The notes beneath the pieces were generated by a model, which saw only the letters and a list, made by a program, of their open reading frames with translations, did not search any database and was not told the origin of the DNA. The position numbers and the translations under genes are program-made. Below, piece by piece: positions 329 to 49,582 of a stretch of DNA of 52,520 bases. Where the stretch lies: IMG/VR virus record IMGVR_UViG_3300031576_000059, positions 1-52,520 of that record; one strand, written 5' to 3'. The first letter of the stretch is position 1. Every line of letters begins with the position of its first letter. The stretch is from a virus.

Positions 329-1768
329 TCAGCCCGTCAGCCGATCAGGCCGAATAGATAGCCCGAGATATTTCTTTCCGTGCTCGCTGTGGGTCCTCTT
401 GAATTTTCTGACCATTCGGTTGCCGAACGATGTCTGGGTAAGGGAGTCTGCGTTGATCCCCTCGGCTTTTGCCTTCCAAGCGATGTAAGTCTTGTAGAGT
501 CTACTGGATAGCTCTGATTTCCCCTCCCCCAGCTCACAACACGATTCGAGGAACTCCGAGAGTGGATCGCTCTCTTCCCGGTACTCCCTGGTTGCGGATG
601 TTACTTCTTCTGGTGGGCACAGTCCCTCGACCTTCCACGCCACCGCGCCAGCCACCATCCAAGCGAGGATCCCAGGAGCCTCGGCGCGGAGCTTCAAGAA
701 CAGATCCCTGTCGGCGCGAGAGCCGAGAAACTCCTGCTCGAACGGCACGAGATGCACGCGCCTCCAGAACCCCTCGGAGTCGTCGCGTACAACAGGGCGA
801 TGATTGAAGGCGAGCCAGAGCTTGAACACGGGGGTGAAGGTGAAGAATTCCTTGAAGTGGAAGCGTGCGGAGATCGTGTCGCCGCCGGTGATCGCTTTCA
901 CGCGAGCCTCGTTGAGGCGAGTGTCCTCTCCTGTCTCGCTCGCGGTGACGAATCGGACGCTCGTGAGAGCCGCGAGATCGTTGGTGGCGCCTTTGCTGTC
1001 GTGAGCTTCGAATGTCGAAAAGGGTGTCGCGGTGGCGAGAGAGCCGAGAATGGAGTGGACAGTTTCGAGGAGCGTCGATTTCCCGTTTGCACCCGTGCCG
1101 TAGCAGGCGAACAAACACTGCTCCGATGTGCTGCCGGTGAGAGAGTACCCAAGGGCGCGTTGCACGAACGAGATGAGCTGTGAGTGTCCGTTGAATATGC
1201 TGTCGATGAACGCGAGCCAACGGGGAGCGGGCGCGAGAGGGTCGAAGGGGATCGGAGAAGCGCGGGAAATGAGATCGGATTGCGCCCCTGAGCGCAAGGA
1301 TCCGTCTCGAAGGTCTACGACCCCGTTCGCCGCGCCGAGGAGAAGAGGATCGCGGTCCCACAACCCGCTCTCGACTCGTATCGCGGGGTCGGTTTCGGAA
1401 AGTTTGAGGAGATCCAGGATGGGTCGAAGGTTCTCGCTGCGCAATGAGAAGGTGACTTCCTTCTGAATCTTCTGCGGGTCGTCGTGTCGGCGCATGGAGC
1501 GCATTCCGCGGAACCTCATAGTGTGCTTCGCAAGCTCCATCGCCTCCGCGGAGGCGCCCGGACGCCACGAATGCTCCCCCCAGACGAGCCAAGTGCCTCG
1601 ATCAGGGTCGAAACGGAGGTGATCGCCGTGTCGTTCGATGAAGAATTCCGAGTTTCCGAGGCCGGAGCAGTTGAAGTCTCTGGAAAAGGAGGAATCTTCG
1701 GGTGGAAGGGGGACTTCGGAGAGCGGTGGAGGGGCGGAGGCGACTGGATCGCGCCGTTTTCGAGGCAT
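329..1768 (-). CDS. P4/D5-type SF3 replicative helicase
   Basis: A 479-residue protein with the C-terminal architecture of phage/plasmid P4-family primase-helicases (D5_N plus SF3 helicase). Seen: Walker A G-T-G-A-N-G-K-S-T at 224-232, a Walker B-type segment ending in ETGED near 278-282, motif C around W-L-A-F-N-H-R-P (318-325), and an arginine-finger-like G-F-W-R-R. The N-terminal 180 residues match the D5_N region, but no Toprim or other primase domain is visible, so it is probably a helicase only. The family unwinds the origin as a hexamer. The start ATG has an AAGGAG site six bases upstream. A clear promoter (1874-1902) and a long hairpin leader precede it. It is far from the polymerase gene and may be transcribed alone. 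Confidence 0.9.
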   Translation of the reverse strand: MPRKRRDPVASAPPPLSEVPLPPEDSSFSRDFNCSGLGNSEFFIERHGDHLRFDPDRGTWLVWGEHSWRPGASAEAMELAKHTMRFRGMRSMRRHDDPQKIQKEVTFSLRSENLRPILDLLKLSETDPAIRVESGLWDRDPLLLGAANGVVDLRDGSLRSGAQSDLISRASPIPFDPLAPAPRWLAFIDSIFNGHSQLISFVQRALGYSLTGSTSEQCLFACYGTGANGKSTLLETVHSILGSLATATPFSTFEAHDSKGATNDLAALTSVRFVTASETGEDTRLNEARVKAITGGDTISARFHFKEFFTFTPVFKLWLAFNHRPVVRDDSEGFWRRVHLVPFEQEFLGSRADRDLFLKLRAEAPGILAWMVAGAVAWKVEGLCPPEEVTSATREYREESDPLSEFLESCCELGEGKSELSSRLYKTYIAWKAKAEGINADSLTQTSFGNRMVRKFKRTHSEHGKKYLGLSIRPDRLTG

Positions 1769-1798
1769 CTGGGTCTCCTTCGGCCAAGGAGAGCGAGA

Positions 1799-1847
1799 CT
1801 GAGGCCGCTGGGCCGATGTGGGAGCAACCCCACAACAGCGGCCTCAG
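1799..1847 (-). promoter_or_regulatory. leader hairpin of the helicase mRNA
   Basis: A perfect 12-bp inverted repeat, CTGAGGCCGCTG (1799-1810) with CAGCGGCCTCAG (1836-1847), encloses a second perfect stem, TGTGGG (1817-1822) with CCCACA (1829-1834). It lies between the promoter at 1874-1902 and the ribosome binding site of the helicase gene, inside a leader of about 100 bases. No T-run follows, so it is more likely a leader structure or protein-binding site than a terminator. Function is inferred from position only. Confidence 0.6.
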
Positions 1848-1873
1848 CCTATGACCCTCACTTCAAGAGGGGA

Positions 1874-1902
1874 AGTCTACAGTACCAGGGCTCCATTGTC
1901 AA
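1874..1902 (-). promoter_or_regulatory. sigma70-like promoter for the helicase gene
   Basis: On the minus strand TTGACA (1902-1897) is followed by 17 bases and TAGACT (1879-1874): a perfect -35 box, the optimal spacer, and four of six -10 bases. It lies in an intergenic region and points at the helicase gene. A start near 1867 would give a leader of about 100 bases containing the hairpin at 1799-1847. Confidence 0.7.
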
Positions 1903-1955
1903 CAAAAATCGAGCGGTGATCAAATTTCAGGGTTCACGGCGTCGAGTGTGCTCCT

Positions 1956-2981
1956 TCATGCCCCCTCCCTCACCACCGCCTCTATCATCTTCTCCACCGC
2001 GGCCTTCGAGATGTCGTACCGCTTCACAATGCGCTCCTGCCGGCTCGTGGTGAGCCCGAGGCTCGCAAGGATGGCCTTCGACGCGGCCACGCTCGCTCCA
2101 GCGGCCTCCACAGCCCTCTGCTGCGCCCAGAACTCCAGCGACTCCACCGCACTCAGGCCCGCGACGAGCAACTTCTCCCTCAGCGCCTGCACGCCCTCGG
2201 CGCTCCCCAGCACCCGCCGCAGCTCCGACTCGAACAGCAGGAACGGCGGCGACTGCACGAGCTGCCGAACAAGCTCCTCCTCCACATCGAGGCTCCGGGC
2301 GATCTGCTCGTCGCTGAGCCCCATCGACCTGGCGTGCGCGGTGGTGATCCACAGCCGATAGGTCTGCGCGTCGCACCTCTCCACGATGCTTGCCACTGAC
2401 GAGCCGAGGCGCTTGAGTGCGTCGCGCATCTCCGTGCGGCTCGACGTCCCTCCTCTGGTCTGCCGAATGACATGCCGGAGTTTATTCGGCACCTTTGGCC
2501 CCGCGCTGAGTTTGCGGCGCTTCCGGTGGTACAGCGCCGACCGCCACACCTTTGTCGTCGGCTCGAAGGTCCACCCACGGTCTAGCAGTCCCGCGGAATC
2601 ACACTCCACGCCGCGCAGGTGCTCGGTGCCGCAGTCCTGGCACGGGCTCCCACCACGACCAATGGGGATCCCATGTGGGCCTCCCTGGGTTTCTCTGCTG
2701 CGAGGGCGGTTCTTGCGGAGTGGAACAGGCGACCCGCTCGACGATAGCCGCACTGGAACGAGTGGAGCCGCGGGTGCGGGAGAGGTCGGTGGCTCGCCCT
2801 CGCTGGCGATCACCGTCTCCGACGAGTTGCCCGCGGCGCTGGGAGAGGGAGAAGCCCCAGCCGCCGCGGGCGTGGTGGAGGAAGGGGCCTGGGAGACCGC
2901 TTCCTCGTGGGAGGAGCAAGCAGATGAACCGTCGGGCTCGTTCACCACGGGAACGGTACAACGACGCAGGGGAGGAGTCAA
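1956..2981 (-). CDS. HTH-containing protein next to the packaging genes (small terminase candidate)
   Basis: A 341-residue protein with no family I can name with certainty. The first 100 residues are low-complexity (Ser, Pro, Ala). Next comes a possible zinc knuckle, C-x2-C with nearby His and Cys (CQDCGTEHLRGVEC). The C-terminal half is helical, with a helix-turn-helix-like stretch M-G-L-S-D-E-Q-I-A-R-S-L-D-V. It is transcribed divergently from HNH-terL. Position beside the large terminase plus a DNA-binding-type fold make a small terminase or packaging regulator plausible, but the opposite strand argues caution. The start used is TTG with GGAG eight bases upstream. GTG at 2948 or 2945 is an alternative, because a promoter-like TTGACT-N17-TACCGT overlaps the 5' end. 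Confidence 0.6.
   Translation of the reverse strand: MTPPLRRCTVPVVNEPDGSSACSSHEEAVSQAPSSTTPAAAGASPSPSAAGNSSETVIASEGEPPTSPAPAAPLVPVRLSSSGSPVPLRKNRPRSRETQGGPHGIPIGRGGSPCQDCGTEHLRGVECDSAGLLDRGWTFEPTTKVWRSALYHRKRRKLSAGPKVPNKLRHVIRQTRGGTSSRTEMRDALKRLGSSVASIVERCDAQTYRLWITTAHARSMGLSDEQIARSLDVEEELVRQLVQSPPFLLFESELRRVLGSAEGVQALREKLLVAGLSAVESLEFWAQQRAVEAAGASVAASKAILASLGLTTSRQERIVKRYDISKAAVEKMIEAVVREGA
2953..2981 (-). promoter_or_regulatory. possible promoter overlapping the start of the 1956-2981 gene
   Basis: Minus-strand TTGACT (2981-2976), a 17-base spacer and TACCGT (2958-2953). If used, transcription would begin near 2946, at a GTG-GTG pair in frame with the gene, giving a leaderless message. The same TTG can also be read as the start codon with its own GGAG, so the two readings compete. 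Confidence 0.3.
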
Positions 2982-3012
2982 GAGGCGTACTCCGTGCTAC
3001 CATTTCAGAGCT

Positions 3013-3402
3013 ATGAACTCCAGGTCTCGTAGGCGCCGTGGTCGAGGTTTCTGGGCTTCCTACAGCCGCCGTCGCTCCTGGGCGATCCTACTGTGGAGAC
3101 ACCTGATTGTCCTCGCCGGGGATCGGTGTCTCTGCTGTGAGATGCAAGGGATCCCTCTGACCATCGATCACGTCGTGCCTCTGGGTCTCGGAGGGCAGGA
3201 CGACATACGCAACATCCAACCTCTCTGTGGCCCCTGCAACGCGGCGAAGAACGACTCCCCCGGTCTCCGTTGCGCCGACTACCGGACTCCCGAGATCCTT
3301 CGCTTCGAACACCTCTCCTGGTCCGAGCAGGTTCGGTGCATCGTTTCCAATGGGCCTGTCCGCTTCTCCAGTGGCCCCGGCTGGGAATGGACCATCGCCT
3401 GA
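3013..3402 (+). CDS. HNH endonuclease beside terminase
   Basis: A 129-residue protein whose N-terminus is very basic (R-rich, residues 1-22). The HNH core with its structural zinc site is clear: C39-x2-C42, D52-H53 in I-D-H-V-V-P-L, N67 in N-I-Q-P-L, C72-x2-C75 followed by N-A-A-K-N. Small HNH nucleases directly next to terL are common in phages with HK97-type packaging, where they assist terminase cutting of concatemers. The frame stays open further upstream, but that part would overlap the divergent gene, and ATG 3013 fits a 129-residue HNH protein. Its stop overlaps the terL start (TGATG), so the two are translationally coupled. It heads the late block. Confidence 0.9.
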   Translation: MNSRSRRRRGRGFWASYSRRRSWAILLWRHLIVLAGDRCLCCEMQGIPLTIDHVVPLGLGGQDDIRNIQPLCGPCNAAKNDSPGLRCADYRTPEILRFEHLSWSEQVRCIVSNGPVRFSSGPGWEWTIA

Positions 3403-5375
3403 TGCCCTACTCCCCCGAGATCCCCGGCCACCCCCTCCTCCCTCTCGACCCCATCGAATCCCGCACTTTCACCCGCGACCTCCTCTTCGCTGGCATATAC
3501 GGTCTCGCCGAGAACACCTCGAAGGTCTGGCTCGCAACCCGCGCCCGAGCCCGCCGAGACCTCCTCTGGGCCTGTCGCAACGTCCTCAACCTCGACCGGC
3601 TCGACGAGGCGCATCACCGGCCCCCGGCGGACTTCATCATGTCCGTGTGCAAATCACCCCACGGCTTCGGGAACCTCCGCGACCCCCGCGGCAACGGCAA
3701 GACCTCCCTCAGCACTCGTGGCGGCACGGTCTGGGTGCTCATCCAAGACCCCATCGAGTGCATCGAACGCGGCTGGCCGATCCGAGGGCGCGAGAGCCGC
3801 ATCGGCATTACCACCCTCAAGATGGACCTCACCTATGACTTCATGCGCGTCGCCCTCGACGACATGAACAACGAACTCCTCCGCTGGGCCTTCCCTGAAC
3901 TCTTCCCCAGCGCCCCCCGCCGCTGGAGTATCAAGGGGATCGAACTCCGTCGCGGCCTCACCGAGGAGCTGGAGAGCCTCCGCGATCACCCCCTGTTCGC
4001 CACATACCCCTCCCAGACCAAATGGCCCGACCCGACGATCTCCCCCCGCGCCCTCGAATCCGGTGTCGCCGGCCCGCACTCCCACGGCGAATTCATCGAC
4101 GACCCTGTGAACACGAAGACTTGGAACTCCGAGACGAACATCGACAACGCGATCCACGGGATCCGGCAGCTCTTCTCCGTCACCCGCCCGGAGCAGGGGT
4201 TTCGCCTCGTCACCGGCAATCACTGGACCGCCGGAGATGTCGCCGACACCATCGACCGCCAGGACGGCAACTGGCGCGTCTTCATGCGCTCGATGACCGC
4301 GTGCACGCTGTGCCGCGACGGTTGGCCCACGGACAGCTCCGGCATCCCCGAGCGCCGCGCCGACAACCGCTGGGTCCATCAGCACGCCGACGCCGACGGC
4401 ACCCCCCTTCCGACCTTCACCTGGCTTATGAAAGAAGCCGACGGCTCCGTCCCTGATGCCGCCGTGATCTACGCCGGCTGCGCCACCAAGCACATCGCCA
4501 TGAGTCAGTACGAGAACTCCCCCTACGACTCCGAGGCGACGACCTGGGATTCCAAAACCCTCCCGCGCTTCCGCTACTTCGACGTGCCCGGCGCCATCAC
4601 CGACCCGCCGAAACTCGGCTGGCGTCTCGCCTACCCCAGCACCACAACCCCCGGCGACCTCACGACCCGCCTCTCGGACCTGCGGATCGGCATCACCTAC
4701 GACCCGGCGCACGGCGCGGACGAGGGAACGTCTCGACACGCGATAGCCGTGTGGGGCTGGCTCCCCGACGACCGCTTCGCGTGGCTCGAATCCTACACTT
4801 GGCCCAGCGCTGACGCCCTCGACGCCCTCGACACCCTCGTCTGGCTCATCCACCGTCTGCACCCGAACAAAGTGGGCATCGAGTCGGTGGGGTATCAGCG
4901 CGTGATCCGCCCGCTCATCTGGCGCGAACTCGAAGCCCGTCGCACCCCCTGCTGCTTCGTTCGCGTCACCGACCCGAAGCGCCTCGGCTGCACCGTCCAC
5001 CGCCTCGACCCGCTCGTTCGCTCCCCCATCGCCGAAGACGACATCATCCCGATCCCCCGCACCCGCGAACAAGGCCGAAAGTCCGCGTACATCCGAGACG
5101 CCCTTGGCCCGCTCATCAACACCCGCGCCATCCTCCTCCCCGCTTCCCCTGCTCCCGGTGCCGCCGAGTCCTCCCACGCCATCGACGTGTTCCCCGTCAC
5201 GATCACCGACCTCATCGACGCCGCCGCGATGATGCCGCACCTGTTCGAGGGTCGCCCGCCGGCCACGCGGGAGGCCAAGATGGAGCGGCGCCGGACGTTG
5301 AAGTTCCGCCAGCTCCGCCATCGCAAGACCGCCGGGGTGACGGGGTACGGGGACTTCGGGCGGCGCCCGCGATGA
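3402..5375 (+). CDS. terL: terminase large subunit
   Basis: A 657-residue packaging motor and nuclease. Seen: an ATPase domain with Walker A-like R-G-N-G-K-T-S at 96-102, Walker B F-I-D-D at 231-234, then a coupling-type G-N-H-W near 272. The C-terminal nuclease has D434 in I-T-Y-D-P-A-H-G, E494 in G-I-E-S-V-G-Y, and a late acidic pair in I-T-D-L-I-D. Known role: hydrolyses ATP to pump DNA through the portal, and cuts the concatemer. The start is ATG at 3402, overlapping the HNH stop; the frame is open upstream, but that part overlaps the HNH gene. The C-terminal tail is basic. Length and motif order are normal for the family. Confidence 0.93.
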   Translation: MPYSPEIPGHPLLPLDPIESRTFTRDLLFAGIYGLAENTSKVWLATRARARRDLLWACRNVLNLDRLDEAHHRPPADFIMSVCKSPHGFGNLRDPRGNGKTSLSTRGGTVWVLIQDPIECIERGWPIRGRESRIGITTLKMDLTYDFMRVALDDMNNELLRWAFPELFPSAPRRWSIKGIELRRGLTEELESLRDHPLFATYPSQTKWPDPTISPRALESGVAGPHSHGEFIDDPVNTKTWNSETNIDNAIHGIRQLFSVTRPEQGFRLVTGNHWTAGDVADTIDRQDGNWRVFMRSMTACTLCRDGWPTDSSGIPERRADNRWVHQHADADGTPLPTFTWLMKEADGSVPDAAVIYAGCATKHIAMSQYENSPYDSEATTWDSKTLPRFRYFDVPGAITDPPKLGWRLAYPSTTTPGDLTTRLSDLRIGITYDPAHGADEGTSRHAIAVWGWLPDDRFAWLESYTWPSADALDALDTLVWLIHRLHPNKVGIESVGYQRVIRPLIWRELEARRTPCCFVRVTDPKRLGCTVHRLDPLVRSPIAEDDIIPIPRTREQGRKSAYIRDALGPLINTRAILLPASPAPGAAESSHAIDVFPVTITDLIDAAAMMPHLFEGRPPATREAKMERRRTLKFRQLRHRKTAGVTGYGDFGRRPR

Positions 5376-5396
5376 CACCCACCACACGAGTTCCCC

Positions 5397-5425
5397 TTGA
5401 CACCTCGCACGCGCAGGAGTAGCGT
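5397..5425 (+). promoter_or_regulatory. candidate late-block internal promoter
   Basis: TTGACA (5397-5402), a 17-base spacer and TAGCGT (5420-5425) in the gap between terL and the next gene. The -35 box and spacing are perfect; the -10 box matches three of six. Its intergenic position and orientation toward the portal-capsid genes support it. Confidence 0.5.
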
Positions 5426-5473
5426 TGCGAGGTGGCTGGACTCGGCCGGGGGGCGCGAAAGGACCACAGACCC

Positions 5474-5623
5474 ATGCCCAAGTCGAAACTCTCCCGCCGC
5501 AAGGCCGCGAAGATGCTCCACGAGGGGAAGGCGCAAGGGCACCCCCTTACGAAGGCGCAGAGGGGGTATTTCGGCGTCGTGGCGTCCGGGAAAGCGCGCA
5601 AGCGAAAACGGCGGCACTCATGA
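5474..5623 (+). CDS. small basic conserved phage protein
   Basis: A 49-residue, strongly basic protein with the pattern K-M-L-H-E-G-K-A-Q-G-H-P-L-T-K-A-Q-R followed by F-G-x-V-A-S-G, which recurs in small proteins beside portal or capsid genes of many phages; its function is not known. The start is ATG 5474, with AAGGA about ten bases upstream; an in-frame GTG at 5432 would add 14 residues without a ribosome binding site. The stop overlaps the next start (ATGA at 5620), indicating coupling. Confidence 0.75.
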   Translation: MPKSKLSRRKAAKMLHEGKAQGHPLTKAQRGYFGVVASGKARKRKRRHS

Positions 5624-5910
5624 GTCTCCTCCGTACCCTCCTCTTCGCTCGCCGCCTCTATCACTTCCTCAAGGAGACCCCAGACATGCTCTCCAAACTC
5701 TTCCCCAGCACGAACGGTCCCGGCGTGTCCAAGAAGATCCTCGTCCTCTTCATCACTGGCACCCTCCTCCCCGTCCTCAACCTCCTCGACACCCCGATGT
5801 GGATCGTCCAGGGCATCGGGCAGCTCGGGGCGATCTACCTCGGCGGGCAATCTCTGGCAGACGCCGCTGGGGCGTATGGGAAATCCAAGAATGGCACTGG
5901 CAGCCACTGA
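5620..5910 (+). CDS. small two-segment membrane protein
   Basis: A 96-residue protein with two hydrophobic stretches, around I-L-V-L-F-I-T-G-T-L-L-P-V-L and W-I-V-Q-G-I-G-Q-L-G-A-I-Y-L-G-G, joined by a short loop. The segment A-I-Y-L-G-G-Q-S-L-A-D-A resembles short membrane proteins found near phage portal genes and sometimes called holins. A second, better-placed holin candidate lies beside the endolysin at 16812, so the role here stays open. ATG 5620 overlaps the stop of the preceding gene. Confidence 0.7.
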   Translation: MSLLRTLLFARRLYHFLKETPDMLSKLFPSTNGPGVSKKILVLFITGTLLPVLNLLDTPMWIVQGIGQLGAIYLGGQSLADAAGAYGKSKNGTGSH

Positions 5911-36305: not shown

Positions 36306-36442
36306 GTCCGCTCCAGAGCGTCGATGATCTCGTTGATCTTCCTTCGTACTTCTCTCAGCTCCTCGGCTGTTGTGTTCCCCGGTACCCCAGGAGCAAGATC
36401 ACTGTCCCGCGGAATCGTCTCGTCGAGTTTCTCGATCTTCAT
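36302..36442 (-). CDS. 46-residue helical protein
   Basis: ATG 36442 overlaps the stop of the UDG-exonuclease gene (TAATG). The product ends in a charged helix (A-E-E-L-R-E-V-R-R-K-I-N-E-I-I). Its stop overlaps the next GTG. Tight coupling on both sides makes it likely real. Confidence 0.6.
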   Translation of the reverse strand: MKIEKLDETIPRDSDLAPGVPGNTTAEELREVRRKINEIIDALERT

Positions 36443-37671
36443 TAGATCCACCCCTCCCTTCGACACACCTCATTCTGTTCCGCCCACAACCTCCTCGTCG
36501 AATCCACGTCCAGCGCGCAGTATCCCGCTCTCCACTGCCCATCCGTGATCGGTATCAAGGGTGCAGGCATCATTGCTGCCCATGCCGCCCTCAGCGCCGT
36601 CTGCCTCCTCACTTCATCCGGCTTCACCGCCCCACTCAACTCCTTCCAATACGGCCTCTCGTGCCCGAACCTCAGCGCCGACCGGAACGCTAGCCCTCTC
36701 GCAAGGTCCGGCTCGCACAGCCCTCCCTGTGCCATCGTGTCCTCGAACGGCGGCACGACATCGATCCCCGCCTCCTCCAGCCTCGGAATATCGAACCCCT
36801 GGATGTTGTGCCCTACCTTCACCACTGGCATCCGCATGAGCCTCCGCACCTTCTCCCTTGCGCTCCACCACGCCTCCCCGTACACCGGCCCTCCATCGAG
36901 CGCCTGCATCCCGATCCACTCGATCCTCCCCGTCCCATCCGTCTCCAGGTCGAACACGAACCCTCCCCGGAGCCTCGCCTCCTCGATTCCCTCGTGCATC
37001 ACAAACGGCATGAACTTCCGCCCTCGTCGAACGACCTGGAGCAGGCGCATCGTGTCGAGCCCCGGTACAGCCCTGTAGGCCATCGCAGGGAACTTCTCTA
37101 ACCTCTTCCTCCTGATGATCGCCGCTGGGTGGATCGACACCCCAATCCAATCCACCTCCTGCGGCACCGGGCACCTCTCCCCAACCGCCGCGTGCATCGC
37201 AGCGACCTCTCTCTGACTCCACACCGCTCCTCGGTGCTTGAGCAACCTCGCCGACCCTGCGGCCGGCACGATAGGCCCGAGCACGCTCCTCAGCGCCGCG
37301 CCTCCGAGCAGCATCACACCCCTCGGCCGTACCTGCCGCAAGAACTCCTCCACCCTCTCTCTGCACACCCTCACCGCTCGGATCTCCTTCATCCCTCCCT
37401 TATCTGGGCGAGCGCACTGGTGGGCGTTCTCGACAGCGACCTCCACTCTCGCTAGCCCTACCCTCCCGAGCGTCCCGACCTCCAACTCCCTCCCCGCGGC
37501 GCCGACGAAACAGTGAGGCCCCGGCTCGTCTCGTGCAGCCGCCCTCACTTCATCCTCCGCCGGCCCCTCCCCGATGAACGCCACCTCCACCCCGGCTCGC
37601 CGTTCCGTGGAGCGGACGACACCTAGCCCTCCGCTCCACGGACAGTCACGGCAGGGCTCAACCAGCGGCAC
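36442..37671 (-). CDS. uracil-DNA-glycosylase-like domain fused to 3'-5' exonuclease
   Basis: A 409-residue fusion. The N-terminal half (1-205) is a family 4-type UDG fold: C7-x2-C10, G-E-G-P at 34-37, C86 and C103 spaced as in 4Fe-4S UDGs, and H181-P-A near 180. The C-terminal half (235-405) is a DnaQ-type proofreading exonuclease: D241-x-E243 (Exo I), G-H-N-I-Q-G-F-D (Exo II, D294), and Y-C-A-L-D-V-D (Exo III). Together with the gene at 34555 it reconstitutes an SPO1-like polymerase (UDG-like + exonuclease + polymerase) split in two. Whether the UDG half is catalytic or only structural is open. GTG start. Confidence 0.8.
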   Translation of the reverse strand: MPLVEPCRDCPWSGGLGVVRSTERRAGVEVAFIGEGPAEDEVRAAARDEPGPHCFVGAAGRELEVGTLGRVGLARVEVAVENAHQCARPDKGGMKEIRAVRVCRERVEEFLRQVRPRGVMLLGGAALRSVLGPIVPAAGSARLLKHRGAVWSQREVAAMHAAVGERCPVPQEVDWIGVSIHPAAIIRRKRLEKFPAMAYRAVPGLDTMRLLQVVRRGRKFMPFVMHEGIEEARLRGGFVFDLETDGTGRIEWIGMQALDGGPVYGEAWWSAREKVRRLMRMPVVKVGHNIQGFDIPRLEEAGIDVVPPFEDTMAQGGLCEPDLARGLAFRSALRFGHERPYWKELSGAVKPDEVRRQTALRAAWAAMMPAPLIPITDGQWRAGYCALDVDSTRRLWAEQNEVCRREGWI

Positions 37672-40486: not shown

Positions 40487-40725
40487 CCCCGTCCTCCTTG
40501 TGTCCCGTGCCGCTTCCCGAGATACTCCTCCAGGTACGTCCCCCTATTCGGCAGCCCGCGCATGTCGCGCCTCCAGAATTGCGCCCCCGCCCACCCGCAC
40601 CGTGCGGGAGCCGGGCGCACCTTGCCGAGGATGCCCGGCACGGACGGGGGCGCGAGATCGCACCACTTCTTCTTCAATGGGCAGCCTCGATTTGAACGAG
40701 GGACGAGAAGGGCTTCTCTCGTCAT
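40483..40725 (-). CDS. hypothetical protein
   Basis: An 80-residue protein, basic, with two Cys in C-P-L-K-K-K-W-C and G-x-P-N-R-G-T-Y-L-E-E-Y near the end. ATG 40725 has AAGG five bases upstream; a TTG 18 bases earlier is possible. The stop overlaps the next ATG. No family recognised. Confidence 0.5.
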   Translation of the reverse strand: MTREALLVPRSNRGCPLKKKWCDLAPPSVPGILGKVRPAPARCGWAGAQFWRRDMRGLPNRGTYLEEYLGKRHGTQGGRG

Positions 40726-40805
40726 ATTAGCCTTGGGGACCAATGACCCCCCTTGCGCCTTTGTACCGGGCCAACGCCACGTCTCTGCCCATCGAAACGC
40801 CTACG

Positions 40806-45410: not shown

Positions 45411-45657
45411 GACTTACCTCCACCTGGACCTCGAACTCCAGATCCCCGAGGATCTCCGAGATCAACCTCGGCTGCTGTGATCCATCCATCGAAAACCACG
45501 GGATAATCCTCCCGTCCTCCGGCGGATCAGGGGTGATCCACAACCCCCGCTCCCACGCAGATCGCAGGAACCCTAGCATCTCCCCTTTGTACCTCACCCG
45601 AAGCCCCACAAGCTGTCGCTGAGGCTCCAATTCCGTCGCTCGAATCCACTGGGTCAC
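45400..45657 (-). CDS. hypothetical beta-type protein
   Basis: An 85-residue protein with V-G-L-R-V-R-Y-K-G-E-M-L-G-F and G-L-W-I-T-P-D-P-P-E-D-G-R-I-I-P, suggestive of a small SH3-like barrel. GTG 45657 overlaps the RadC-like stop. Unknown function. Confidence 0.55.
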   Translation of the reverse strand: MTQWIRATELEPQRQLVGLRVRYKGEMLGFLRSAWERGLWITPDPPEDGRIIPWFSMDGSQQPRLISEILGDLEFEVQVEVSREG

Positions 45658-46106
45658 ATCAGCCCCCTCTCCCTCATCGACACGAGCCCTCTCGGACTCA
45701 CGATCAGGTGATCGTACAACCCGATCCCCAGGATGTCCGCCGCTTTCCGAATCGCCATCGTGAAGTCCTGGTCCTCCTGGCTCACCTCCAGGCTTCCAGA
45801 CGGATGATTGTGCGCGAGGATCACCCCCATCGCCCCATGATCAATCGCCGGCTTGAATATCTCTCTCGGATGCGTGTGGGTGGTGTTTAGGCTCCCCACC
45901 GAAATCTCCTCCCTCGCAAGGAGCTGATTCTGAGCGTCGAGATAGAGTCCCACGAGGTGCTCGCGCTTCATCTTCGACAGCCCACGAACAACGGCGTAGG
46001 CGGTCTTGGGATCGGAGATCGCCTGTGCCTCCCTCACCTCCACCTGTCCCCCGCACATCTCGCACACCGCGTAGCTCCCCTTACCGTTCGCTTTATACTT
46101 GCTCAT
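45654..46106 (-). CDS. radC: RadC-type JAMM domain protein
   Basis: A 150-residue protein: an N-terminal C-E-M-C-G, then the RadC/JAB fold with a complete metal site H-N-H-x7-S-x2-D in H-N-H-P-S-G-S-L-E-V-S-Q-E-D, and an upstream Glu in the E-I-S-V-G region. It lacks the helix-hairpin-helix domain of chromosomal RadC, as do many plasmid and phage versions. Metal-dependent hydrolase fold; the true substrate of RadC proteins is unknown. It follows the E1-like gene by two small genes, so the block has two JAMM proteins. Confidence 0.85.
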   Translation of the reverse strand: MSKYKANGKGSYAVCEMCGGQVEVREAQAISDPKTAYAVVRGLSKMKREHLVGLYLDAQNQLLAREEISVGSLNTTHTHPREIFKPAIDHGAMGVILAHNHPSGSLEVSQEDQDFTMAIRKAADILGIGLYDHLIVSPRGLVSMRERGLM

Positions 46107-46276: not shown

Positions 46277-46473
46277 CTCACCCTCCAACAGTTGCACTCC
46301 GGCGGCGCGCAGCAGCTACATTCCGCCAAGAGAGTCCCACTACATAGCAGGCACCTCCAGACATTCCCTCTCAGGTACACCGCATCGTTCTGTTCTGCCT
46401 GCCACCGGACATTTACAACCGTCTGCTTCGTTTCCCTCGCAAGCTCAACCGCCCGTTCATCCGTTAGGATCAT
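46273..46473 (-). CDS. 66-residue Cys-rich protein downstream of the E1-like gene
   Basis: ATG 46473 overlaps the E1-like stop (ATGA), so it is translated with that gene. The N-terminal half is helical. The C-terminal half is packed with Cys: W-R-C-L-L-C, then E-C-S-C-C-A-P-P-E-C-N-C. It could bind one or two zinc ions. Being coupled to the conjugation genes, it is a possible accessory or substrate of that system, which is inference. Confidence 0.6.
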   Translation of the reverse strand: MILTDERAVELARETKQTVVNVRWQAEQNDAVYLRGNVWRCLLCSGTLLAECSCCAPPECNCWRVR

Positions 46474-47150
46474 GCCGCCCTCACCTCCTCCACGAAACCC
46501 GCTCGGAAGTTCCACTCCACCCTCTCCGGGAGCACCCTATCCCCCCTCTCCCCCGCGAGCCACATCGTGAGCGCCGCTCCCGTGATCGCCGCCGCGTTCG
46601 AGCACAGCGCCCTCGCGCCGCACTCCGAATGCGTGTATGTCACCCCGAACAGGCTCCTCTCGAAGTCCTCCACGCTCGTCGGAGGGCAGAACACCACGCT
46701 CCCTCCCTCCGGTGCCACCCGCACGTCGATGATCCGCCGCGGCGCTCGTCCTCGTGTCATCGCCGCTCGCCATCCGTCGATTGTGGCGTGCCATCCCTCC
46801 TCCGCGTCTGCGCACATGAACACCACCTTCTCGTCGAGAAGCGGTTGTCCAGGGGCTCCTGTGAACATCTCAGGGATCGCCCGCACCCGCAACCCCGTCA
46901 TGAGCCGGATCCCCCGTGCCAGCGCCCTCACCTTCGCCTCCCCCACAGCCCCCGGAGCATACACCTGCGCCGGCAGGTTGTGAGGCTCCACCTTGTCGGC
47001 ATCCATGACCATAACGCTCTCGAACCCCATCTTTGCGAGCTGGAGCGTAAACCAGCTCCCCGTAGTCCCGGCGCCGAGGATGAGCACCTCCACGCGCCGG
47101 AGCGCTGCCGGGACCAGTCCCTCCTGCCGTCTGTAGTCCGCCGCTGTCAT
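46470..47150 (-). CDS. ThiF/E1-like ubiquitin-activating enzyme homologue
   Basis: A 226-residue protein of the E1/ThiF/MoeB superfamily. Seen: nucleotide loop G26-A-G-T-T-G-S32, D50 at the end of strand 2 (V-M-V-M-D-A-D-K-V-E), N58-L-P-A-Q62 (the E1 N-x-x-x-Q element; the usual Arg before Gln is Ala), K73, D115 in C-A-D-A-E-E, and a Cys pair C177/C183 in E-C-G-A-R-A-L-C where related E1s carry the transfer Cys. The family adenylates the C-terminus of a ubiquitin-like protein. ATG 47150; the frame extends 33 codons upstream, but that part overlaps the JAMM gene. Next to a JAMM and an E2-like gene. Confidence 0.82.
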   Translation of the reverse strand: MTAADYRRQEGLVPAALRRVEVLILGAGTTGSWFTLQLAKMGFESVMVMDADKVEPHNLPAQVYAPGAVGEAKVRALARGIRLMTGLRVRAIPEMFTGAPGQPLLDEKVVFMCADAEEGWHATIDGWRAAMTRGRAPRRIIDVRVAPEGGSVVFCPPTSVEDFERSLFGVTYTHSECGARALCSNAAAITGAALTMWLAGERGDRVLPERVEWNFRAGFVEEVRAA

Positions 47151-47151
47151 G

Positions 47152-48048
47152 TCAGGCACAGCTCTCCTCCCACTCTTGAAGGTATGCCTGGAGCACCCGC
47201 CGCATGAGCTTGAACTTCCGCACCTGGACCCAGCTCCCCGACGTTCCACGAGGCTCCCCAGCCCATCGCCACAGTTTCCCGTTCGTGACCTCGTAGATCA
47301 ATCCCCCCACCGTGGTCTGTTGCCCCTCGAACGCCTCCAGCTCGTCCACCACCTCCACCCTCGTCATCCCCTTCACCGAGGTGAAGTCGTCCGCGCTAGT
47401 CCCTCCACCTCCCCCACCAGCGATCTCGCCAGTCCTGGAGAGGCTCCCCACAAAAGGGCGAGTGGTGTCCTCCCCATCGAAGTTGAACGATCTCACACCG
47501 TCGAGGAGCGAAATCGTCGCCCGCTTCGTCGCCGCCCTCGCCGCCGCGGCCTGCTCCGCCTCCCACGGATACGCCACTCTCTCCTCCACGAACTCCAGGT
47601 CCGTGATCCTCACGAACACCGGCTTGTTCACGTACAGCTCCCCGGCGATCTCCCCCTTGAGATTGTGCGTGATCCCCACGCACCAGTCCTTCGCGCCGAA
47701 GTGCTTGAGCAGACTCTTAGAGTCCTCGCTGCTTCGGTGCGCCGCCAGTGCCGCATGGCTGTGCCCCTCCATGTTCAGGTCCGCCGGGTCACACCCATCG
47801 GCGAACACCCTCTCGTAGAGCGCGCTCACCTCCTCCGCGTCGATGTCCCCGTGCGCTGCCCCGACCTTCTGCACCGCTGGCAGCCACACCCGCTCCACGC
47901 GCACGCACGAGGAACTCACCAGCCTCGCAATCCCCAGCCACGCGATCTCCGTAGCCGTCCCGCCCCCGTTGTCATCCAGCCCCGCGTTCTCGATCCACGT
48001 CTTCACGAGTGCGAGGATCTCGTTCGGAAACCTCACTTTGACAGGCAT
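47152..48048 (-). CDS. JAMM/MPN+ isopeptidase-like protein
   Basis: A 298-residue protein. Residues 1-150 form a JAB/MPN+ domain: E34 in T-E-I-A-W-L-G, then H96-S-H98-x7-S106-x2-D109 in H-S-H-A-A-L-A-A-H-R-S-S-E-D, a perfect zinc site. The remaining half contains an Ala-rich helix, a Gly-rich linker and a C-terminal domain ending in helices. Such proteins remove or mature ubiquitin-like modifiers. It lies one base from the E1-like gene and nine from the E2-like gene, so all three should be one message. The C-terminal extension is larger than in minimal JAMM proteases and may bind substrate. Confidence 0.83.
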   Translation of the reverse strand: MPVKVRFPNEILALVKTWIENAGLDDNGGGTATEIAWLGIARLVSSSCVRVERVWLPAVQKVGAAHGDIDAEEVSALYERVFADGCDPADLNMEGHSHAALAAHRSSEDSKSLLKHFGAKDWCVGITHNLKGEIAGELYVNKPVFVRITDLEFVEERVAYPWEAEQAAAARAATKRATISLLDGVRSFNFDGEDTTRPFVGSLSRTGEIAGGGGGGTSADDFTSVKGMTRVEVVDELEAFEGQQTTVGGLIYEVTNGKLWRWAGEPRGTSGSWVQVRKFKLMRRVLQAYLQEWEESCA

Positions 48049-48057
48049 TCTCTCCTC

Positions 48058-49200
48058 CTAGCGGCGTGACTGTAGCTCGCCGTCTCTGTACGCCGCGATC
48101 ACGCACTTGGCACTGCAATACTCCCCCTCGCCGTCGCCCGAGCGGAAACCCTCATCGCACCCCAGACAGGTGCTGAACGTCTCGCCGTAGCAGGCCTCAC
48201 AGTAGGAGTCTCCGCTGTGGTCAATCACGTCGTCGCAGTGGACGTACTCCGAGCAACTCGTACATACGGAGTAGTCCCCCCGACACTCGGCGCAGACACG
48301 CCTGCCAGATAGATCCTCCGTCTCCCCGACGGTACCGCAATTCTCACATGTCGTCTCCGACTCTCCCGGAGCCTCACCTACCAAGTCTGGCCCAGGCGCC
48401 CCACCTGACGCCTCCGTCTCCACCGCCACTACCTCCGCAGTCCTCGTCAGCTCCGCATTGAACACCCCTTCACGCGCCACACCACTGCACCCAGGACAGC
48501 CCATCGCCACCGCGAGGCTCCAGTAGACCCTCTTCCCCAGCGGTCTGCACGTCGGGCACATCACCAGCTCTCTGTAGTGCTCCGGCCCGCAATACGGCAC
48601 ATCCCCGTCCCCGTTCCCGCTCCTCCCCGGTTGGGACTCCAGCAGCGCTCGCACTGTGTCAAACACCATCGCGTACCTGCCGGCTTCTATCAGCGAGCGA
48701 ATGGACTCCTTCGCCGTGCCCAGGCAGATGAGCTGCTCACTAGCATGAACCCCGTAATGGTTATGCGGCCCGAATCCGGGGGGCGCCCCATTCACTCCCG
48801 GCAGCAACGCCTCTCCACTCGGGAGCACCACGCCTCCGAGCCAGCGGATGTTGAGCCTGCTGTCCACCGGTGGAGCTACTGGCACCTCCACCGCCCCTAA
48901 GAACTCGAACCCTCCACTCTTGAACCTCATCGGCATCACGAGGGCCTCTCCGCTTCTTGTCGCTCGCACGCCCATCTCCACGAGCGCCTCGGGCTCACTG
49001 GCTCGAACCTCCGCCCAGTGGCGCTCGGTCTCGTTGAGCTGGCGTCTGACGTTCTTCAGAGACTCCTCGGCTGACTCCAGGAGGGCCTCCCGTGAGATCA
49101 CCGTTGTACCCAGCGCCTCGCACTTCCGCCTCCCCTCCGCCCCGAGCGCCGCGGCTATCTCCTGTCTCGCAAACATGCACACCGCCATCCGATCCATCAT
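48058..49200 (-). CDS. E2-like protein with Cys-rich zinc tail
   Basis: A 380-residue protein. Residues 36-70 are helical. Residues 88-190 resemble a prokaryotic E2/UBC fold: strands M-R-F-K-S-G-G-F-E-F and L-N-I-R-W-L-G-G-V-V, then P-P-G-F-G-P-H-N-H-Y-G-V-H followed by L-I-C159-L-G, as in the H-P-N-x-x-x-x-G-x-I-C-L active site of E2s, and a helix ending in V-R-A-L-L. The tail (204-366) has at least eight C-x2-C or C-x3-C pairs (for example 215/218, 285/288, 303/306, 313/316, 334/337, 345/348, 362/366), like RING/treble-clef arrays. ATG 49200 is chosen because a terminator sits just upstream; an earlier start would read through it. E2 assignment is by motif and context. Confidence 0.6.
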   Translation of the reverse strand: MMDRMAVCMFARQEIAAALGAEGRRKCEALGTTVISREALLESAEESLKNVRRQLNETERHWAEVRASEPEALVEMGVRATRSGEALVMPMRFKSGGFEFLGAVEVPVAPPVDSRLNIRWLGGVVLPSGEALLPGVNGAPPGFGPHNHYGVHASEQLICLGTAKESIRSLIEAGRYAMVFDTVRALLESQPGRSGNGDGDVPYCGPEHYRELVMCPTCRPLGKRVYWSLAVAMGCPGCSGVAREGVFNAELTRTAEVVAVETEASGGAPGPDLVGEAPGESETTCENCGTVGETEDLSGRRVCAECRGDYSVCTSCSEYVHCDDVIDHSGDSYCEACYGETFSTCLGCDEGFRSGDGEGEYCSAKCVIAAYRDGELQSRR

Positions 49201-49212
49201 CCCCGCCCTCTC

Positions 49213-49248
49213 AAAAATGCAGGGGGAGCCATGCCCCGCTCCCCCTGC
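49213..49248 (-). terminator. intrinsic terminator before the E2-like gene
   Basis: On the minus strand, GCAGGGGGAGC and GCTCCCCCTGC form a perfect 11-bp stem (49219-49229 with 49238-49248, 8-base loop) followed by ATTTTTG (49218-49212). This is the clearest rho-independent terminator in the window. It stands between the gene at 49271-49582 and the E2-like gene, whose expression must then come from read-through or from regulated antitermination, because there is no room for a promoter after it. Confidence 0.85.
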
Positions 49249-49270
49249 GAGAATCACGCCCGAGGCGCCG

Positions 49271-49582
49271 CTACGACCGGACCTTGTACTCCGGCGCCAC
49301 CATCACCCTCGCGCCTTCGGGGATCGTCACGTTGAGCCCCGCCGACTCCCCGTTGATGCGGATGTGCGACTTCGGGTCCAGGAGGGCCTCCTGGAAATCC
49401 CCGAACTCCTCCCCGCACTCCTCCGCGGCCACGCCGTTGAGGGTGAGGTACGACCCCTCCATGCGACCCGGCGAGGCGTCGTACTCCGCGATTCCCCTCA
49501 CCGTGAACGGCACCCCGTTGTGCCCCGACACCTCCACCGCGAAGGTCGTGCTGAGGCTCCCCACGAACATGCTGCACTTCAT
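49271..49582 (-). CDS. 103-residue protein, possible beta-grasp C-terminus
   Basis: A beta-rich protein. The last 30 residues, H-I-R-I-N-G-E-S-A-G-L-N then I-P-E-G-A-R-V-M-V-A-P, follow the ThiS/MoaD/ubiquitin-like pattern V-N-G ... L-x-x-G-x-x-V-x-x-x-P. It does not end in Gly-Gly (the end is K-V-R-S), so activation by an E1 would need a different chemistry, and it may simply be an unrelated beta-protein. ATG 49582 lies after GGGAG. It is the gene immediately before the E2-JAMM-E1 set, separated by a terminator. Confidence 0.45.
   Translation of the reverse strand: MKCSMFVGSLSTTFAVEVSGHNGVPFTVRGIAEYDASPGRMEGSYLTLNGVAAEECGEEFGDFQEALLDPKSHIRINGESAGLNVTIPEGARVMVAPEYKVRS

Follow-up and report, generated by a model that had tools for sequence, protein, structure and literature searches.

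The ubiquitin system tags proteins and is most familiar from our own cells, and bacterial ubiquitin-like tagging is known mainly as a form of anti-phage immunity. The locus described here raises the question of what such machinery might be doing in a phage. The window, that is, the whole stretch of DNA that was analyzed, is a 52,520-base IMG/VR virus record with terminase and portal-like genes on board. A sequence-only reading of it had claimed that three adjacent genes between positions 46470 and 49200 encode an E2-like protein, a JAMM isopeptidase and an E1-like enzyme, together forming a ubiquitin-like conjugation cluster. That claim is well supported by evidence at the level of the gene family, and the ubiquitin-like protein (Ubl) that was missed by the first reading has been found upstream of the other three genes. 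The window probably carries a phage-borne, four-gene Ubl-E2-JAB-E1 cassette for reversible conjugation, which belongs to a lineage common in diverse phages and is predicted to act early.

Layout of the cassette

A terminase-like gene, a match to an SU10-type portal and a virion structural protein are found on the plus strand of the window, while the minus strand carries replication-type genes. The three minus-strand open reading frames of the proposed cluster are present as claimed, and their identities as E2-like, JAMM and E1-like genes are confirmed by profiles built from relatives and by conserved motifs (Table 1). With the Ubl gene included, the order of transcription is Ubl-E2-JAB-E1, and the E1 ATG lies one base past the JAB stop. 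The likeness to the bacterial Bil system that had been noted thus holds for the gene order; however, the cassette is housed in a replication gene module, away from the tail genes.

Table 1. Features of the cassette region, in window coordinates
Feature	Position	Strand	Basis
Beta-grasp Ubl of 103 aa, encoded first in the cassette	49271..49582	-	Relatives' Ubl profile, alignment A9
E2-like protein with a UBC-type core over roughly residues 1-190 and a C-terminus rich in Cys	48058..49200	-	Relatives' profile, alignment A8, AlphaFold
Active-site H-N-H of the E2-like protein, corresponding to relatives' HPH/HPN	48763..48771	-	Alignments A5, A7, A8
Cys of I-C-L-G in the E2-like protein, predicted to be catalytic	48724..48726	-	Invariant in 52 aligned sequences
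Cys-rich C-terminal region of the E2-like protein, probably zinc-binding, repeated CxxC pairs	48061..48348	-	Sequence
JAB/JAMM metallopeptidase, predicted to process and remove the Ubl	47152..48048	-	Relatives' profile, JAMM residues
E1/ThiF-like adenylyltransferase	46470..47150	-	Pfam ThiF, relatives' profile, adenylation residues
RadC-like JAB protein, neighbour; second JAMM protein of the same minus-strand module	45654..46106	-	Pfam RadC (2.9e-38)

Two further features of the region can be mentioned. The RadC-like JAB gene lies a few genes downstream of E1, and need not belong to the cassette. The E2 reading frame is also open upstream, lacking an ATG, and reaches the last part of the Ubl gene (49200-49302, minus strand), and this could possibly reflect, for example, a frameshift fusion with the Ubl gene.

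A family of phage cassettes

Direct IMG/VR searches with each window protein returned no viral relatives. Direct searches likewise uncovered no relatives of the terminase, and none of the E1 in bacterial genomes. A tblastn search of phage records with the E1 matched Flavobacterium Fpv phages and Xanthomonas/Erwinia jumbo phages, and crAss-like phages weakly; a mixed crAss/Fpv alignment used as the query either diverged too strongly or led to no confirmed match. The route that succeeded was to pair the window E1 with a Xanthomonas phage E1, which led to 10 IMG/VR loci. The profile made from an alignment of these 10 loci recovered 119 E1 relatives in IMG/VR, 80 of which were kept.

The neighbourhood search of phage databases that had been suggested as a check bears out the cluster. 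All four kinds of protein (Ubl, E2, JAB and E1) are present in 72 of the 82 viral loci examined, a set that includes overlaps and 74 distinct E1 sequences, and whose members come partly from related phages; loci of such related phages are not independent and have overlapping sets of neighbouring genes. The parts are separated by a median gap of 8 bp in the relatives' cassettes. The gene orders found are Ubl-E2-JAB-E1 (24), E2-JAB-E1-Ubl (15), E2-E2-JAB-E1-Ubl (9), Ubl-E2-E1-JAB (8), Ubl-E1-JAB-E2 (6) and others. Profiles built from the relatives with the window left out were searched against 8398 open reading frames of the window and of the loci retrieved, and they recovered all four window genes. 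With these adjacent genes found together in 72 of the 82 loci, chance matches to motifs are not a reasonable explanation; gene order and profiles together rule them out.

In a midpoint-rooted FastTree phylogeny of 89 E1 proteins, the window falls inside a phage group with the loci L014, L016, L019, L037, L038 and L042 (support 0.945), and within this group it has the longest branch. The crAss/Fpv proteins and the ThiF proteins of plasmids or bacteria lie outside. The terminase profile phrog_2 matches 28 of 50 relatives' records but also 11 of 14 cellular controls, and phrog_38 matches 11 of 50 records and 5 of the 14 controls. Since the cellular controls match too, the terminase profiles only partly establish the relatives as tailed phages.

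Several loci show duplicated parts. Some genes, mostly from one related phage group, contain two to four tandem Ubl domains and so resemble poly-Ubl (L090:8911-10062, L096:8233-8907, L071:5302-5943 and others). Two tandem E2-like genes stand ahead of JAB in L031, L033, L043, L052, L057 and L063, and L048:4704-14581 contains two cassettes in succession.

The E1 and JAB proteins

The window E1 matches Pfam ThiF (E=2.8e-16) and the relatives' profile (E~1e-38), and the E1 family profile matches MccB, UBA5, ThiF and E1 enzymes. The adenylation site, on whose integrity the original claim depended, is intact: the Gly-rich loop and residues D55, D57, N63, Q67, K78 and D120 are conserved. C182 is invariant in an alignment with the E1 proteins of crAss, Fpv and Xanthomonas phages and is a candidate for the thioester residue. 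The Arg of the N-x-x-R-Q motif (NIGRQ in PRTRC ThiF) is not kept in phage E1 proteins, which have NLPAQ, NLPNQ, NVASQ or NMSGQ at this site (residues 63-67 of the window E1).

Searched alone, the window JAB gave no Pfam match and nothing convincing in PHROGs, but the profile of its phage relatives, built without the window, identifies it with E=1.4e-15. Its JAMM site is complete, as had been proposed, with E34, H96, H98, S106 and D109 invariant among 25 aligned JAB proteins (A10). The HxH...SxxD motif is found in 83 of 84 JAB matches.

The E2-like protein

The window E2-like protein alone matches no Pfam family and nothing convincing in PHROGs, and by itself it is a weak match to profiles. A profile of 79 relatives finds it as the only matching window frame among the 8398 searched (E about 0.008-0.026 over iterations), and the aligned region either spans the active-site Cys or lies right behind it. 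The 'H-x-H...I-C-L-G' pattern, first read as an active site from the letters, proves to be a conserved site of the family. Its Cys and Gly are invariant in the 52 sequences of alignment A8, as Cys158 and Gly160 when counted from 49197 (Cys158 is Cys159 when counted from 49200). When the A8 profile (52 rows, window included) was compared with the PDB, the best matches were eukaryotic ubiquitin-conjugating enzymes (2aak, E=0.0023), aligned at HPN...C. Two family members reach Pfam UQ_con, the better at 2e-4, and one member, L018, has the classical HPN motif. At the level of the family, the A8 profile and the invariant Cys thus point to an E2/UBC domain with a catalytic Cys.

An AlphaFold model of the window protein made without homologues was useless (pLDDT 37). 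With the 52 sequences supplied, the core reaches a pLDDT of 83.9 with a helix-strands-helices order, and confidence in the model drops only in the active-site loop and at the C-terminal end. A Foldseek search with this model gave no significant match in the PDB or among viral models; the E2 protein UFC1 turns up repeatedly near the head of the list, at E values of at least 0.6 and with entries that are many copies of one protein. The proposed UBC fold is therefore upheld by the sequence profiles, on which the claim rests because Foldseek found no significant match, and the structure model agrees with it weakly. The Cys-rich C-terminus gave only a weak zinc-finger match in Pfam; at least two CxxC pairs after the core are also present in 17 of 90 relatives.

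The Ubl and its C-terminus

A Ubl profile of 56-75 phage relatives, excluding the window, matches a single window frame, that at 49271-49582 (E=3.7e-4 to 1.1e-3), and covers just its C-terminal half. The Ubl family matches SAMP2 (1.2e-6), ubiquitin, ThiS and MoaD. All 28 aligned relatives' Ubls have a Gly at or near the C-terminus, often with one to four residues after it (A9), and the Gly with zero to a few trailing residues that most relatives' Ubls show fits processing by trimming. The window Ubl ends in ...VMVAPEYKVRS, without the C-terminal Gly expected for activation. Since this near-invariant Gly is missing, conjugation by this particular copy is uncertain. The window copy may be altered, inactive, mis-assembled or using other chemistry. 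The Ubl profile found no second Ubl among window frames of at least 40 aa; one may lie outside the record, which may be incomplete.

Genomic neighbourhood and proposed role

The window cassette shares its minus-strand module with genes of the UDG/polymerase-like, Sak4-like and RadC-like kinds. In several phage groups the recurrent neighbours of the relatives' cassettes include PhoH, ribonucleotide reductase, RecA, DNA polymerase A, an SNF2-type helicase, SbcC-like proteins and ParB, and in crAss-like phages the cassette is placed between primase and uracil-DNA glycosylase. Such neighbours, from replication and nucleotide metabolism, speak for a role early in infection or linked to replication more than for the modification of tails.

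Three other features of these regions were observed. The window gene at 36442-37671 (minus strand) combines an N-terminal match to uracil-DNA glycosylase with a C-terminal match of DNA polymerase type, possibly as a fusion. A tRNA-Trp gene is located at 40677-40773 (minus strand). In L007 (Acinetobacter phage ME3), a gene whose annotation reads PRTRC system protein A lies close to a ThiF gene (1742-5879).

The identities of the parts were observed directly, as were their motifs, order, conservation and gene company, whereas chemistry, direction and targets are inferred. In the family, the JAB protein would trim any residues beyond the C-terminal Gly of the Ubl, and could also take the tag off again. 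The E1 would adenylate the Ubl and hand it as a thioester to the Cys of the E2, which would attach it to targets, perhaps aided by its zinc-rich tail. Because the cassette sits among replication genes, action early in infection seems most likely, with phage replication proteins or host proteins as the likeliest targets.

Alternative explanations

The alternative that deserves most weight, though we consider it unlikely, is that the window copy is decaying or was wrongly assembled at the Ubl end, and does not work here. In its favour, the window Ubl ends in ...EYKVRS where 28 of 28 aligned relatives have a Gly, and the window E1 is the longest branch of its group. However, the four reading frames are open and closely spaced, and the active-site residues of E1, JAB and E2 are all kept. 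A role in sulfur-carrier chemistry of the ThiS/ThiF or TtuB-like kind, for example in the modification of nucleotides or tRNA, would involve no protein tagging. The E1 and Ubl families do match ThiF and ThiS/MoaD/TtuB, and JAB proteins occur in operons of the sulfur-carrier type (PMC1779556), but the presence of a conserved UBC-like E2 with its Cys in nearly every cassette makes this very improbable. Simple thiamine biosynthesis is ruled out by the presence of E2 and JAB.

Two further models invoke conflict, and we judge each of them improbable, to about the same degree. The cassette could act in superinfection exclusion, as a Bil-like defence that tags the virion proteins of a rival phage; its component set and gene order are those reported for Bil. 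In PADLOC scans, however, the window E1 and JAB match just the generic E1-E2 and JAB models and none of the defence models beyond these, the cassettes lie among replication genes, and part of the family is fixed as an operon across related phages. Alternatively, the proteins could counter host immunity based on Ubls (CBASS type II, Bil or Bub), mainly through the JAB or a decoy Ubl. The JAB is kept almost throughout (the motif count above), the E1 matches Cap2-type E1-E2 models, and the Gly-less window Ubl could serve as a decoy that cannot be conjugated. Nonetheless, a full E1-E2-Ubl cascade with mostly Gly-ended Ubls would be needless for pure counter-defence. An early-acting, reversible conjugation cassette remains the preferred reading.

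Implications

As a broader and more tentative proposal, many phages may possess complete Ubl conjugation and deconjugation systems of their own lineage, tandem poly-Ubl precursors included, that serve the early or replication programme rather than immunity; some, like the window, would do so with a Gly-less Ubl. No account of phage Ubl-E2-JAB-E1 cassettes was found in the literature searched, which left most subscription papers outside its reach, and the novelty is therefore provisional. If the proposal is true, a widespread phage-owned version of the machinery would mean that the attackers use tagging too, and one would then ask which proteins, of host or phage, receive the tag. Cultured phages with related gene sets (Bacteroides crAss-like phages and Flavobacterium Fpv) make this question directly testable. 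The family also bears on the spread of E2-type conjugation between viruses and cells.

Comparison with known systems

Bil is a bacterial ISG15-like system consisting of a Ubl, an E2, a DUB and an E1. The window has these four kinds of protein in the same Ubl-E2-JAB-E1 order; unlike Bil, the window set is phage-borne and lies within replication modules, and the sequence comparison covers PADLOC scans of the E1 and JAB, with a model library that may or may not include Bil. Bil has been listed among immune pathways (PMC13373217). The adenylation half of the E1 resembles Cap2 of CBASS type II, and both systems have a JAB as deconjugating enzyme. However, the window set includes a Ubl and has its E1 and E2 in two distinct genes, and the E1 matches only the adenylation part of E1-E2 models. 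No CD-NTase was detected among the window proteins scanned, which, with the unfused E1 and E2, rules out CBASS.

The PRTRC cassette of Rhodoferax plasmid NC_007901 combines a Ubl (C), B, A (a JAB carrying HSH...SxxD) and ThiF within a single operon, ordered much as in the window, and the window E1 matches its ThiF protein. PRTRC systems reside on plasmids and ICEs and have ParB-related, E and F genes; a Pfam scan of a subset of window genes found no ParB-type match among the cassette neighbours. According to a published description (operon type 6d, PMC1779556), the classical E2 His is missing from the E2-like proteins of PRTRC; in the phage E2s, by contrast, H-x-H (HPH) or HPN is retained ahead of the Cys. 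The Arg of NxxRQ also distinguishes PRTRC E1s from the phage proteins.

Crassvirales and Flavobacterium Fpv phages have a JAB-E1 pair with an upstream H-S-H...C-x-G protein and a Ubl-like protein, near primase and uracil-DNA glycosylase. Their E1s form a separate clade, and their E2-like and Ubl-like proteins, unmatched by profiles, were identified by motif and position; hhalign comparisons of single window proteins with crAss families were uninformative except for E1. The Xanthomonas phage E1 is accompanied by a Ubl ending in SGG and a large HPH...CLG protein. The tail genes of phages Lambda and T1 also pair a Ubl-like protein (TAPI) with a JAB (TAPK) (PMC1779556), but as tail assembly genes without E1 or E2. 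The window has an E1 adenylation domain, an E2/UBC protein (at the family level), a JAMM protein and a nearby beta-grasp Ubl, the components expected of prokaryotic Ubl conjugation. As judged from sequence, the cassette appears to resemble the known prokaryotic Ubl-conjugation systems, sharing its gene order with Bil and, nearly, with PRTRC.
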